Positions 35,739-41,180 of a DNA stretch of 64,000 bases are shown here, piece after piece. Below the pieces are notes generated by a model. That model made no database searches. It had not been told where the DNA came from and saw nothing but the letters and a program-made list of their open reading frames with translations. The number at the start of each line of letters is the position of its first letter. The first letter of the stretch is position 1. This DNA comes from Ruegeria sp. 6PALISEP08 (GTDB lineage Bacteria; Pseudomonadota; Alphaproteobacteria; Rhodobacterales; Rhodobacteraceae), in assembly GCF_001238295.1 (NCBI RefSeq), contig NZ_LGXZ01000006.1, forward strand, positions 186,001 through 250,000, given 5' to 3'. A program made the position numbers and the translations under genes.

Positions 35739-36050
35739 ATGCGCGCACGGATTTACCAGCCTTCGCGAAACGCGATGACCTCGGGGATGGCCAAAACCCG
35801 CAAATGGGTTCTGGAATATGCCCCGTCCTCGGCGCGTGAGGTTGACCCGCTGATGGGCTGGACCTCTTCCAATGACACGCAAACTCAGATTCGCCTGAAA
35901 TTCGACACCAAGAAAGAGGCGCTGGATTACGCCAAGGACAATGGTATCGACGCTCAGGTCAGTGAGCCGCACAAGCGCAAACCCAACTTGCGCACGCGAG
36001 GCTACGGCGAGAATTTCGCCACGGACCGGCGCGGCCCCTGGACTCACTGA
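35739..36050 (+). CDS. Complex I accessory subunit, NDUFS4-like (ETC_C1_NDUFA4)
   Basis: The 103-residue protein matches the 18-kDa accessory subunit of NADH:ubiquinone oxidoreductase (NDUFS4/AQDQ) kept in alphaproteobacteria. It has [27 protein letters not shown] at the N-terminus, [14 protein letters not shown] (the segment contacting the NADH-binding module) and [17 protein letters not shown]. Its genes are usually outside the nuo operon, as here. The GNAT gene follows directly: the stop and the next ATG are adjacent. Confidence 0.92.
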
Positions 36051-36527
36051 ATGATCGAAATCCGCGAGGCTGATCCGACCTCGGATGCTTTGCTCCCGCT
36101 TGTCGAGGCGCATTTTGCCCATAGCGAATCGGCGGGGCCTGTGGAAAGCAACCACACCATGAACGCCAAGGCTTTGGCCGGATCGGGGATTCGATTCTGG
36201 GCGATCTACGAAGAGGCGCAGCCATTGGGGTGTGGAGCCTTGAAAGCTCTGCCCGATGGCACGGCCGAGGTGAAATCGGTACATATCCTCGAACAAGCGC
36301 GGGGGCGCGGTCTGGCGCGTGTAATGATGAAACACCTTGCTGAATTAGCGCGCGCCGAAGGTCTTGACGCATTGGTTCTTGAAACCGGAGCAGAGCATCT
36401 TGCGGAATACGATGCGGCCCGCAAGCTCTACGAGGCGTTGGGTTATTCCTATTGCGGACCGATCCATGGGTATAGTGATGATCCGAACAGCGCATTCATG
36501 CGCTTGGCTCTTGAACCCGGCCCGTAA
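36051..36527 (+). CDS. GNAT-family N-acetyltransferase
   Basis: The 158-residue acetyl-CoA-dependent acyltransferase has the acetyl-CoA loop HILEQARGRGLARVMMKHL (RxxGxG/A pattern) and the C-terminal YEALGYSYCGPI motif. The substrate is unclear. It follows the NDUFS4-like gene without a gap, and the tRNA-Arg begins 21 bases after its stop. Confidence 0.9.
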   Translation: MIEIREADPTSDALLPLVEAHFAHSESAGPVESNHTMNAKALAGSGIRFWAIYEEAQPLGCGALKALPDGTAEVKSVHILEQARGRGLARVMMKHLAELARAEGLDALVLETGAEHLAEYDAARKLYEALGYSYCGPIHGYSDDPNSAFMRLALEPGP

Positions 36528-36548
36528 AAACCGCAAGAAGGGCTCAGC

Positions 36549-36625
36549 GGTCCCTTAGCTCAACTGGATAGAGCAGCTGACTTCTAATCAGCAGGTTGAG
36601 GGTTCGAGTCCTTCAGGGATCGCCA
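36549..36625 (+). tRNA. tRNA-Arg (anticodon TCT)
   Basis: The 77-nt tRNA has a fully paired acceptor (GGTCCCT/AGGGATC with one G-U), D arm TAGCTCAACTGGATAGAGC and anticodon arm GCTGA-CTTCTAA-TCAGC with anticodon TCT. The T arm is GAGGG-TTCGAGT-CCTTC. Discriminator G and a CCA are encoded. It decodes AGA. It marks the left border of the AT-rich transporter segment. Confidence 0.95.
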
Positions 36626-36830
36626 TAAAAATGACTCTGTACTTCCGAGAATTTCCAAGTGCTCATACGGAATCGGGTTTTGTCAGGAAGACAGTCACGC
36701 AGTTGGTGAAATTTGGTCACTAACGTACTGAAAATAATCCAGTAACTTTGGTGGCGGTATTGCCATATTTTAAGTTTCTGGATCAAAGTCGCCCCCAACT
36801 CACAAATTAGAATGCACTGGGGTTTTTCGA

Positions 36831-38489
36831 ATGAGGTCTAGCTGGTTTTTTACCGGTCTGCTGGCGATTGCTCTCTTATCCAGCAATGCTACTGCTGTCG
36901 CCGTACTTAGTCGAAGTTTTGACCCCGTACTAATCTCGATATGCTGTTCGATCCTGACCTGTGCGGGCTTGGCCACAGTGGTCAATGGGTTGAAATTGAA
37001 CTTTCGGCGCTATGTGTCCGATCCTCACTTCTTGCTTACCATTGGCTTGAAAGCTGCCAATGATCTGGCATTTTTTTTGGCAGTTGGGGGCAGTCAACAG
37101 ATTGAAGCGACAATTTTGGTCTACCTTTATCCGATCAGCAATATGCTCATTGCGGGCTTTGTCTTAGGAGACAGCTACGAGCGTCTCACACCTGCGCACT
37201 GGATTCTGGTTGCCATCGCCGGATGCTCCATATTTGCGATCACCCCTCTTACCGGCACGAACGCTATGGAATGGTCCATTGTTTTTCTGGCGTTGCTGTC
37301 GGCTCTTTCCAGTGCTTATGTCGTTACCTTACAGAGCGCCGCAGATCGCTTGTCTGCAGACAACAATGATGAACGCGCGCTGATTTTGCTTTTGTTCCTC
37401 GGCAGCACGCTTCTGCAGATTATTTATGTTTTGATCAGCGGACATGACCTGAAGATTGATGAAGCGCTATCAAGCGAGCAGCTGTGGATGTTCGTTCTCG
37501 GGGTTGGTTGGATTTCGATTTTCGTCAACATTGCAAGTGAAAAGCTTTGGTTGCGGGCGTCGCGCGAATATCAGGGAATCTCACTAAAAAGCTTATTCTT
37601 CCTCTCTCCAGTACTGGGGGCGATTTATTTTGTGCTGCTTGGATTGGACACAGTGAACTCAGCGATGGTCTTTTCGCTGACTATCGTCGTTACGGTTAAC
37701 TTGTTGTTGCATAACAAAGACATTGAGGAGTTGTCCTTTTTGATCCTGATATTCTCTTTCGTTGGTCTAACAGTGGTTCGAGAGATGCTGCCAGAAACCA
37801 CAAATTTCTCGTCCTTTGTTGCATCACCTTTCGTGCTGGACAGCCAAATCGCGATCATCTCGATACTGATTGGCTTTATTTTGCTACGCGCTTTTGAGGT
37901 CTACACAAAGTCCATTGATGCATTGGTCAAGCTTCTCGAGGTCATGGTTGAGTTCGCGCGAAAGAAAAACCCGGGAATGCTGCCAGAACTTGAGACGCAA
38001 TTCATGCATCTTCTACAGGCACCGGATGTCGCGTACTGGGAAAACAAAAAATATAGGAGTTTTAAGGACGCTGTAGCGAGCCCGGAAGTTGCTGCGACTT
38101 ACATGCATTTCTTCAAACTGCGGTTCGCATCGACATCATACGCGGAGTATTTCCTTTGCTTCCTGATATGTTACTCGATGCTGCCTTTTATTTTGGGGTA
38201 TTCGCTTCGGTCTGACGGTAGTGGATTTCTGGGTGTTCTGATTTCTTCAATATGTATCTTCCTGCCGTTCTTTATTCTTGAGCTGACGACACTGCGTATG
38301 GCGCAACCATATCTTGGGCTTTTGTTGCGCCGTGTCGCGTGGCTTCAGTTCAGTGCTGCGGGTGAAGATGTGCCAATGTACTTCGTGCCCCGCCAGAGGT
38401 TTAAGCGCGCGCGGTTCAAAAGAGCGCTGTCAATGGCGGGGATCGTGATGCTTGTTGCGATTGTAAGTTGGAACTTCTTGGCAAACTGA
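36831..38489 (+). CDS. AT-rich DMT-like multi-pass membrane protein with extension
   Basis: The 552-residue protein has an N-terminal half of about ten membrane helices arranged like a drug/metabolite transporter (EamA type; e.g. YLYPISNMLIAGFVLGDSY in the fourth-fifth helix region). A cytoplasmic stretch follows (about 370-430) with a heptad-like KSIDALVKLLEVMVEFARKK, then further hydrophobic helices and a basic end. This is roughly twice a normal 300-residue EamA, and the C-terminal part has no family I know. GC content is visibly lower than in the neighbours. It is the only gene between tRNA-Arg(TCT) and its near-copy at 38668, and no integrase is seen. The 205 bases before it hold no gene. 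Confidence 0.75.
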   Translation: MRSSWFFTGLLAIALLSSNATAVAVLSRSFDPVLISICCSILTCAGLATVVNGLKLNFRRYVSDPHFLLTIGLKAANDLAFFLAVGGSQQIEATILVYLYPISNMLIAGFVLGDSYERLTPAHWILVAIAGCSIFAITPLTGTNAMEWSIVFLALLSALSSAYVVTLQSAADRLSADNNDERALILLLFLGSTLLQIIYVLISGHDLKIDEALSSEQLWMFVLGVGWISIFVNIASEKLWLRASREYQGISLKSLFFLSPVLGAIYFVLLGLDTVNSAMVFSLTIVVTVNLLLHNKDIEELSFLILIFSFVGLTVVREMLPETTNFSSFVASPFVLDSQIAIISILIGFILLRAFEVYTKSIDALVKLLEVMVEFARKKNPGMLPELETQFMHLLQAPDVAYWENKKYRSFKDAVASPEVAATYMHFFKLRFASTSYAEYFLCFLICYSMLPFILGYSLRSDGSGFLGVLISSICIFLPFFILELTTLRMAQPYLGLLLRRVAWLQFSAAGEDVPMYFVPRQRFKRARFKRALSMAGIVMLVAIVSWNFLAN

Positions 38490-38667
38490 TAGCAACGCCG
38501 CCGTTCCAAGAGACACCGAACAGCTGGCGCGTCAGGCGAGGAAACGTGTGATAGATGTGGCTCGTTACGAAACCGGGTAGCTATTGTTTTGGCAAAGGTT
38601 TCCGCCCATCTGCTGAGTTAATCGCTCGGCATTGGAAAGCCAGAGGTGAATCTTAAGAAGGCGCAGC

Positions 38668-38744
38668 GGCCCCGTAGCTCAACTGGATAGAGCGGCTGAC
38701 TTTTAATCAGCAGTTTGAGGGTTCGAATCCTTAAGCGACCGCCA
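38668..38744 (+). tRNA. tRNA-like gene, anticodon TTT (Lys), mispaired; copy of tRNA-Arg
   Basis: The 77-nt sequence is nearly identical to the tRNA-Arg(TCT) at 36549 in the D, anticodon and T arms, but its anticodon is TTT (loop CTTTTAA). The acceptor halves GGCCCCG and AGCGACC pair at only 4 of 7 positions (mismatches at pairs 3, 5 and 7), and the T stem has one extra mismatch. Discriminator G and CCA are retained. Either it is a decaying tRNA pseudogene from duplication, or a divergent tRNA. Charging by LysRS cannot be decided here. Confidence 0.6.
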
Positions 38745-38820
38745 TTTTTTAACAGATATCAGACACAGATGATCAGGGCCTTGATCCGGGGCGCTGTTGT
38801 GGCTGCTTGGTGGTGTGTAA

Positions 38821-38850
38821 GGGGCTGGACGAGGGGGTCATGCCAGCCCC
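38821..38850 (+). terminator. Terminator-like hairpin after the tRNA-like gene
   Basis: GGGGCTGG/CCAGCCCC stem with a 14-base loop, followed by TTT; 76 bases downstream of the tRNA-like sequence. Confidence 0.5.
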
Positions 38851-39061
38851 TTTAAGGGGTCACAGAGTGGTAGTGTGTGTTCCTTAACCAATCATTAACC
38901 TGATTCATCGTTCTCCGATATTGGGGGATTCCCGTAGGGTCGAATTTGCGCGGATTTCAGCGCGTGAAGTTTGGCAGGACTTTCCGATTTGAAGATCGCT
39001 TCGCAGTTTTTGGGGTTTTCGAGTTCGGCGCGCAAAAGTGCCAGCGCTACGAAAAAAGATA

Positions 39062-39077
39062 TTGCAACCGGTTGCAA
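39062..39077. promoter_or_regulatory. Operator of the inositol LacI repressor (site 1)
   Basis: TTGCAACCGGTTGCAA is a perfect 16-bp palindrome of the LacI-family type (central CG). It lies 45 bases upstream of the iolG start. Identical or near-identical copies lie at 40115, 52451 and 55848. Confidence 0.75.
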
Positions 39078-39121
39078 AGAGAATCATTGTTGCGCGCAAC
39101 ACCAAGATTCGGGAGAGCCGC

Positions 39122-40135
39122 ATGTTGAAGGTCGGACTGTTGGGCGCGGGGCGCATCGGGCGCGTTCATGCGCAGGCGATTACATCCCATCCGGGTTGCA
39201 TACTTTCTGCTGTTTCCGACGCTCTGCCCGATGCCGCAGCAAGTCTAGCCAGCGAACATGGCGCCAAAGCCCGTAGTTCGGACGAGATCATCGCCGACCC
39301 GGGAATTGATGCGATTCTGATTGCAACTCCGACAGACACGCATTCTGATTTGATCGAGGCTGCGACAGGCGCAGGCAAGGCAGTTCTGTGCGAAAAGCCC
39401 GTTGATCTAAACCTACAGCGGGCAATGGACTGTCTAAATACAGTATCTGCACGCGGCAAGCCTGTGATGATTGGGTTTAACCGGCGTTTTGATCCGAATT
39501 TTGCGGCGTTGAAGGCCGGGTTGAGCGCAGGTGAAATTGGCAAGGCCGAGCTTTTGTCGATCACCTCATTTGATCCGGCGCCACCTCCTGTCAGTTACGT
39601 AAAAGTGTCGGGCGGACTGTTTCGGGATATGATGATTCATGATTTCGATATGGCAAATTATCTGATGGGTGATGTGCCGCAGACTATATCGGCGGTTGGA
39701 TCATCGCTTGTGGATGCGGAAATCGGTGCGGTTGGTGATGTGGATACAGCGGCAGTCACAATGACTTACGCGGATGGCCGGATTGCAGTCATCAAGAATT
39801 CGCGGCGCGCGGCCTATGGCTATGACCAGCGGGTTGAAGTGCTAGGCTCTGACGGGTTGTTGCAGGCGCAGAACATGCTGGAAAACACCGTCGTGAAATC
39901 AACGGTGGACGGCGTTGTGGGGGCAAAGCCGACCCATTTCTTCCTGGAACGTTACATGACGGCCTACCGGGTTGAGTGGGCAGCTTTTGTTGATGCCGTT
40001 GAAGGCGGGTCCGAGGTTCCGGTCACGTTGCAGGACGGCGTTGCAGCTTTGGCAATGGCCGAAGCTGCAACGCTGTCGGCGCAGACCGGTAGGTCAATCC
40101 AGATGGAAGAAATTTTGAAACCGGTTGCAAAATGA
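39122..40135 (+). CDS. iolG: Inositol 2-dehydrogenase
   Basis: This NAD-dependent oxidoreductase of the Gfo/Idh/MocA family oxidises myo-inositol to scyllo-inosose, the first pathway step. It has the Rossmann motif GLLGAGRIGRVHA, the family EKP (LCEKPVDLN), and the catalytic Asp and His in GGLFRDMMIHDFDMANYL. ATG 39122 follows GGGAG; the longer open frame from 39038 would overlap the operator. 337 residues is normal. It is preceded by the palindromic operator and ends in a second copy, so the importer behind it can be controlled separately. Confidence 0.93.
   Translation: MLKVGLLGAGRIGRVHAQAITSHPGCILSAVSDALPDAAASLASEHGAKARSSDEIIADPGIDAILIATPTDTHSDLIEAATGAGKAVLCEKPVDLNLQRAMDCLNTVSARGKPVMIGFNRRFDPNFAALKAGLSAGEIGKAELLSITSFDPAPPPVSYVKVSGGLFRDMMIHDFDMANYLMGDVPQTISAVGSSLVDAEIGAVGDVDTAAVTMTYADGRIAVIKNSRRAAYGYDQRVEVLGSDGLLQAQNMLENTVVKSTVDGVVGAKPTHFFLERYMTAYRVEWAAFVDAVEGGSEVPVTLQDGVAALAMAEAATLSAQTGRSIQMEEILKPVAK
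40115..40130. promoter_or_regulatory. Operator of the inositol LacI repressor (site 2, inside iolG end)
   Basis: TTGAAACCGGTTGCAA differs from the perfect site by one base. It lies within the last codons of iolG, 130 bases before the importer start, and would allow repression of a separate importer promoter. Confidence 0.6.
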
Positions 40136-40259
40136 TCGAATTTCTTCAAACTTACGTTAGCTCGGCCCAGCGCCGCAGCCACTGAGATTCGGCACAGCCG
40201 GATGATTGGGGCCGGTACCCCAACAGAAGATCAGACTGAACCATTGGGAGGAAACTGAA

Positions 40260-41180
40260 ATGAAGAAATTCGTTAAAGGCGCGCTTGCTGCTGGGGCACT
40301 GGCTCTGGCGACACCTGCATTTGCGCAGGAAATCGTGGTCGTGTCGCATGGTCAGGCCAACGACGCATTCTGGAACGTCGTGAAAAACGGTGTTGAGCAG
40401 GCCGGTAAAGATGTCGGCGTGAACGTGGAATACCGTGCGCCGGAAACCTTCGACATGGTGGCCATGTCGCAGTTGATCGATGCTGCCGTGAACCAGGAAC
40501 CGGACGGCCTGATCGTTTCGATCCCGGATGCGGACGCGCTTGGCCCGTCAATCGAACGTGCTGTTGCCGCCGGTATTCCGGTGATCTCGATCAACTCGGG
40601 TTCTGACGTCTCGAAAGACCTGGGCGCATTGCTGCACGTGGGTCAGGACGAGTTTGATGCCGGCAAAGCCGCCGGTGAAGAACTCGCTTCGATGGGCGGT
40701 AAAACAGCGATCTGTGTGAACCACGAAGTCGGAAACGTTGCGCTGGACCTGCGCTGCGCCGGTTTTGCAGAAGGCTTTGGCGGTAACGTTGAAGTACTGC
40801 CGACCTCGAACGACCCAACGGAAATCGAGTCGAAAGTTTCCGCTGCTTTGGCTGCAAACGAAGCCGTCGACACAGTCATGGCGCTGGGTGCAAGCTCGGC
40901 TGGTGAACCGACTGTTGCAGCCGTCAAAGGCTCGGGCCGTGATGTGAATGTTGCGTCCTTCGACCTGTCGGCCAACTTCCTGCAATCGATTGCGGACGGT
41001 GACGCGGCATTTGCCATTGATCAGCAGCAGTACCTGCAAGGGTACCTGTCGGTGAATTTCATGGGTCTGCACGCCAAATACGGCCTGATGCCTGGTGGTA
41101 ACGTGCCCTCGGGTCCGAACCTGATCACTCAGGACAAGGCTGCTCAGGTGATTGAGCTGTCTTCGCAGGGCATCCGCTGA
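40260..41180 (+). CDS. Sugar/inositol ABC transporter substrate-binding protein
   Basis: The periplasmic binding protein (306 residues) of the RbsB/IbpA family has a signal peptide (MKKFVKGALAAGALALATPAFA). The periplasmic-binding fold shows EIVVVSHGQANDAFWNVVKNG, a DGLIVSIPD segment, and a GIPVISINSGSD turn. Its position between iolG and iolD, and the operator 130 bases upstream, point to inositol. It resembles IbpA of Caulobacter-type importers. GGGAGGAA precedes ATG 40260. An inverted-repeat hairpin follows the stop. Confidence 0.88.
   Translation: MKKFVKGALAAGALALATPAFAQEIVVVSHGQANDAFWNVVKNGVEQAGKDVGVNVEYRAPETFDMVAMSQLIDAAVNQEPDGLIVSIPDADALGPSIERAVAAGIPVISINSGSDVSKDLGALLHVGQDEFDAGKAAGEELASMGGKTAICVNHEVGNVALDLRCAGFAEGFGGNVEVLPTSNDPTEIESKVSAALAANEAVDTVMALGASSAGEPTVAAVKGSGRDVNVASFDLSANFLQSIADGDAAFAIDQQQYLQGYLSVNFMGLHAKYGLMPGGNVPSGPNLITQDKAAQVIELSSQGIR

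Follow-up and report, generated by a model that had tools for sequence, protein, structure and literature searches.

At this locus, the tRNA-Arg(TCT) gene is duplicated on either side of a lineage-specific insertion, its second copy is decayed, and the gene itself is an insertion hotspot. We consider that the arrangement is probably a small tRNA-anchored insertion, the shrunken or integrase-less remains of an element that had integrated site-specifically at this hotspot, and we infer as its cause a site-specific recombinase whose gene was lost or which acted in trans. The event is of an ordinary kind, a mobile element having most likely left its remains at a frequently used site of insertion.

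Two tRNA copies and the DNA between them

The window (the whole stretch of DNA analysed, 64,000 nucleotides) contains two 77-nt tRNA sequences, 2119 bp apart start-to-start (Table 1) and identical at 68 of 77 positions (88%), the nine mismatches lying at positions 3, 7, 27, 36, 47, 60, 66, 69 and 72. ARAGORN called copy 1 as tRNA-Arg(TCT) and left copy 2 uncalled. In a search of the window with Rfam RF00005, copy 1 scored 65.8 bits and copy 2 scored 44.7; with an E-value of 2.9e-6, the resemblance of copy 2 to a tRNA is thus not due to chance. This score lies above the Rfam gathering cut-off and is the lowest among 43 tRNA matches genome-wide (next lowest, 51.7). The ungapped repeat measures 86 nt at 88% identity and, with one gap allowed, also includes the leader AAGAAGG(G)C(T/G)CAGC, which takes up ~13 bases in front of the tRNA. 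On the 3' side, it ends within one base of the tRNA, and the sequences behind the two copies are unalike.

Table 1. Features of the duplicated tRNA-Arg(TCT) locus, in window coordinates
Feature	Coordinates	Strand	Evidence
NDUFS4-like (NDUS4) gene, conserved upstream neighbour	35739..36050	+	Pfam NDUS4 1.6e-34; same gene before the tRNA in G382 (L175 ORF 418-729, judged by sequence similarity)
GNAT acetyltransferase gene, conserved upstream neighbour	36051..36527	+	Pfam Acetyltransf_1 1.4e-13; left arm with 83-86% identity in relatives that have the empty site
tRNA leader AAGAAGGGCTCAGC, left repeat copy	36535..36548	+	Sequence; kept in genus relatives
tRNA-Arg(TCT) copy 1, intact	36549..36625	+	ARAGORN; Rfam 65.8 bits; 100% identical in G045, G029, G042, G015
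Insert, present in none of the other 53 genus genomes	36626..38667	+	Genus comparison; empty sites in relatives
552-aa EamA/DMT-like membrane protein with C-terminal extension	36831..38489	+	36% identity over 492 aa to the G602 protein, which matches EamA (4.1e-6)
Leader relic AAGAAGGCGCAGC, right repeat copy	38655..38667	+	Sequence; resembles genus leader AAGAAGGGCGCAGC
Copy 2, decayed tRNA-Arg with anticodon TTT, probable attachment-site relic	38668..38744	+	Rfam 44.7 bits; 4/21 stem pairs broken
Native downstream flank, Gfo/Idh/MocA and sugar-binding protein genes	38797..40744	+	83-84% identical over ~1.95 kb in G045, G029, G042; Pfam; in relatives, follows the single tRNA immediately

Copy 2 retains the D, anticodon and T arms, the encoded CCA and the leader. 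Its acceptor stem pairs at 4 of 7 positions and its T stem at 4 of 5, i.e. 4 of 21 stem pairs are broken, none of them compensated, and the predicted RNA fold is not a cloverleaf. We compared it with 31 distinct tRNA-Arg(TCT) sequences from 123 partly overlapping loci: 30 are fully paired (7/7 in the acceptor stem, 5/5 in the T stem), the sole exception being the distal copy in G382 (see below). Nine substitutions placed at random in copy 1 break ~3.7 of the 21 stem pairs on average, against four observed, and copy 2 therefore looks like unconstrained sequence, its mutations disrupting stem pairing at the frequency expected of random changes. The bases at position 36, the anticodon change, and at position 47 occur in none of the 31 related tRNAs. 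C3, G7, G27 and A60, on the other hand, are natural variants among them, so that part of the mispairing could stem from the joining of two variants and not from later mutation. The 5' half of copy 2 resembles tRNA-Arg(CCT), but it resembles ordinary TCT variants as well.

The insert holds a single long, intact gene, and its G+C content is ~48%, against ~55-60% around. The remaining 205 and 178 bp at its ends contain no long frame and have no similarity to any element compared; no integrase or integrase remnant was found in the insert. The second copy and the intervening DNA are present in one of 54 genus genomes, this one only. In G045, G029 and G042 the site is empty: the upstream arm (83-86%) and the downstream arm (83-84%) adjoin a lone tRNA that has the sequence of copy 1, similarity on the downstream side starting again 53-57 bases past the end of the tRNA, and further relatives display the same succession of upstream genes, one tRNA and downstream genes. 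These empty sites, together with the absence elsewhere in the genus, indicate that the insert is lineage-specific. By this comparison, the ~2.1 kb behind copy 1, up to and including copy 2, is a gain in this genome, loss in all the others being less simple.

What the first-pass annotation had read from the DNA holds: two 77-nt copies ~2.1 kb apart with anticodons TCT and TTT, an acceptor stem paired at only 4 of 7 positions in the second (to which the T stem adds one break), and one gene between them with no integrase. The insert is indeed lower in G+C than its surroundings, and moderately AT-rich. The search for an empty site in relatives that it had proposed found the uninterrupted site with a single tRNA, and a second copy, whose occurrence in relatives in canonical or fully paired form it had named as a refutation, occurs in no genus relative (n=53).

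tRNA-Arg(TCT) as an insertion hotspot

Comparison across the genus and family indicates that the same tRNA-Arg(TCT) is hit repeatedly and in different ways, i.e. it is a hotspot. In G382, from another genus of the same family, tRNA-Arg(TCT) lies behind NDUS4. Next come a 9-kb stretch that encodes a tyrosine integrase (Pfam 3.9e-13) and, beyond it, another copy of the tRNA, identical at 76 of 77 positions. This element (L175) shares with the insert studied here the target tRNA, the NDUS4 neighbourhood and an essentially full-length copy at the far end; it differs in having the integrase and a primase-like gene, a hardly decayed copy, no leader repeat and an unrelated cargo. A tyrosine-integrase element in G053 comes with a displaced 3' half of tRNA-Arg(TCT), and islands in G018, G013, G039 and G047 cut the gene in its D arm and bring a replacement tRNA-Arg(TCT).

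These D-arm islands (L079/L080 in G018, L081/L082 in G013, L088/L089 in G039, L078 in G047) measure ~16-31 kb, the one in G039 being spread over two contigs. All of them interrupt the native tRNA at the same GAGC, and their ends bear C-rich and G-rich arms. Their replacement tRNA-Arg(TCT), complete and divergent, sits ~130 bp inside the left end and belongs to one of two lineages. At the right end in G018 and G013, we observed a phage-integrase-like protein beside a protein of the PF13009 Integrase_2 type. The native tRNA-Arg(TCT) was not found in G022, G035, G003, G032, G028, G004 and G007 (L074-L077, L084, L086, L087); these seven have a GGGCCG-type replacement tRNA only, which in at least five adjoins the same upstream genes. 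A 35-nt stretch of tRNA-Arg(TCT) also occurs in 36 IMG/VR contigs (L095-L130), with anticodon TCT in all; the tRNA is nearly always complete and fully paired, often with a different acceptor stem, and to judge from these sequences it is a phage tRNA gene or a prophage end.

Origin of the insert

The left copy is intact, the right copy is joined to the native downstream flank, and the ancestral site had one tRNA. A circular element with tRNA-Arg sequence at its attachment site would have been joined to the chromosomal tRNA gene, either by its own recombinase or by one acting in trans. The left end would thereby have kept a working tRNA and the right end gained a redundant copy, which would then have drifted as a pseudogene, with the TTT anticodon among its mutations; the recombinase gene would have been lost or never carried. 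On this reading, the unusual second tRNA records how a gene was acquired. The membrane-protein gene may have stayed intact through selection, or may be younger than the decay of copy 2. The first-pass annotation had proposed such a mini-island, with a tRNA that was duplicated on integration, or a duplicated tRNA in decay, a reading to which the empty sites, the absence of the cargo from the rest of the genus and the integrase-bearing analogue in G382 lend support; it had set island duplication and pseudogene drift side by side as options, and the two are compatible rather than alternatives.

Several features speak against a remnant. The insert has neither an integrase nor a recognisable remnant of one, and no homologue on any mobile element searched. 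The repeat spans the whole tRNA and its leader, whereas classical displaced fragments span one end only; copy 1 is 100% native-like, so that an element-borne half is unrecognisable; and G382 offers an analogue whose kinship to this insert is not proven. Islands as defined by Islander likewise have a tRNA gene at one end, a displaced tRNA sequence of matching orientation at the opposite end, foreign DNA enclosed by the two and an empty site in relatives (PMC4383910). The present insert differs from them in lacking an integrase, in its size of only ~2.1 kb and in that the displaced sequence is a whole tRNA plus leader and not an end fragment. Since the Islander definition of tDNA-targeted genomic islands includes an integrase criterion (PMC4383910), we do not file it as a complete island. 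Tycheposons, as summarised in PMC10872708 from the Prochlorococcus work, are also tRNA-bounded cargo units in marine bacteria, but by that summary they carry a tyrosine recombinase and span 4-200 kb, and a kinship with this insert is unsupported.

The extent of the repeat bears on two other origins. A tandem duplication of the tRNA gene may have come first, one copy then decaying and the cargo gene being inserted later in the spacer by an unrelated event. The leader inside the repeat is what a duplicated gene would be expected to show, the same genome has tandem pairs of tRNA-Asn, -Asp and -Gly, and G151 has a tandem Arg pair ~120 bp apart. We nevertheless hold this to be unlikely: a tandem unit would share the sequence that follows the tRNA, whereas this repeat stops within a base after it, and no genus genome has two close copies without cargo. 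Alternatively, the tRNA-Arg(TCT) gene of a relative, with leader and cargo, could have been integrated by homologous recombination with no site-specific recombinase. Copy 2 does have the leader and the full gene, its leader reads CGCAGC, the common state in the genus, against CTCAGC in copy 1, and its acceptor bases C3 and G7 are known from intact tRNAs of other genera. However, the shared block of only ~90 bp is short, and the integrase-bearing elements at this locus provide a simpler source, which makes this route rather unlikely too. It is mainly because the leader lies within the repeat that these two origins retain some probability beside the remnant of a site-specifically integrated element.

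Also improbable is a minimal mobile cassette of tRNA gene, cargo and tRNA gene, in which the whole tRNA and its leader would serve as attachment site for a recombinase acting in trans. If this held, single genes could be traded at tRNA-Arg(TCT).

Finally, copy 2 is highly unlikely to be functional as a tRNA or tRNA-like RNA, whether by decoding lysine codons, by being mischarged or by regulating the adjacent gene, since its retained arms, CCA and leader and its score above the Rfam cut-off are to be set against four uncompensated broken stem pairs, an alternative predicted fold, its presence in this genome only and in none of the relatives, no other TTT version among the genome contigs, genus, family and viral contigs examined, and an intact tRNA-Lys(TTT) that is the best-scoring tRNA of the genome. 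No source of a TTT-anticodon copy was found in the genome contig collection or in the 36 viral contigs, all of them TCT. The lysine decoding that the first-pass annotation had predicted from the one-base change of TCT to TTT, and its option of a mischarging or regulatory tRNA, thus find no support. The TTT anticodon is best explained as one of the drift mutations of copy 2, with no new lysine tRNA made, and the passing of the Rfam cut-off is a warning against counting copy 2 as one.

The cargo gene

The gene carried by the insert has a G+C content of 48%, with 56% at third positions against 60-77% in its neighbours. We found no internal stops, where ~6.5 would be expected had it drifted as far as copy 2; the gene has thus been under selection or postdates the decay, or copy 2 was already diverged on arrival. 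Its source could not be traced, as no match was found in the genome contig collection, viral contigs, plasmids or phages.

Searches of the protein against Pfam, PHROGs and PADLOC gave no match, and NCBIfam gave only a far sub-threshold one to the amino-acid exporter YddG. A profile including one distant homologue detected a clear relative in G602 (E 1.3e-59), 36% identical to the cargo protein over 492 aa, and weaker ones in G640 and G172. The G602 homologue matches EamA marginally (4.1e-6, 27.5 bits for a cut-off of 28.2). A single-sequence structure model reached a mean pLDDT of 41.5, too poor to judge a ten-helix DMT fold. As in EamA/DMT transporters, the cargo sequence is helix-rich and hydrophobic; it differs from them by its length of ~550 aa with a C-terminal extension, by having no Pfam match of its own and by a homologue fused to OpuAC (see below). 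The protein therefore appears to be a member of an EamA/DMT-like family that is sparsely distributed and has a C-terminal extension; it probably exports or senses a small metabolite.

Behind the cargo gene, a short frame (at ~38497-38580) ending in AAVPRDTEQLARQARKRVIDVARYETG and a stop may represent the 3' end of a gene otherwise lost; its only match is sub-threshold, to PCP_red (E 0.019), and plasmids and phages gave none. No tRNA lies near the cargo homologues in G602, G640 and G172, within 17-18 kb around each. In G398 (L066/L204), the homologue is fused to a glycine-betaine-type OpuAC substrate-binding domain, and a tRNA-Pro(TGG) is located close upstream of the fused gene.
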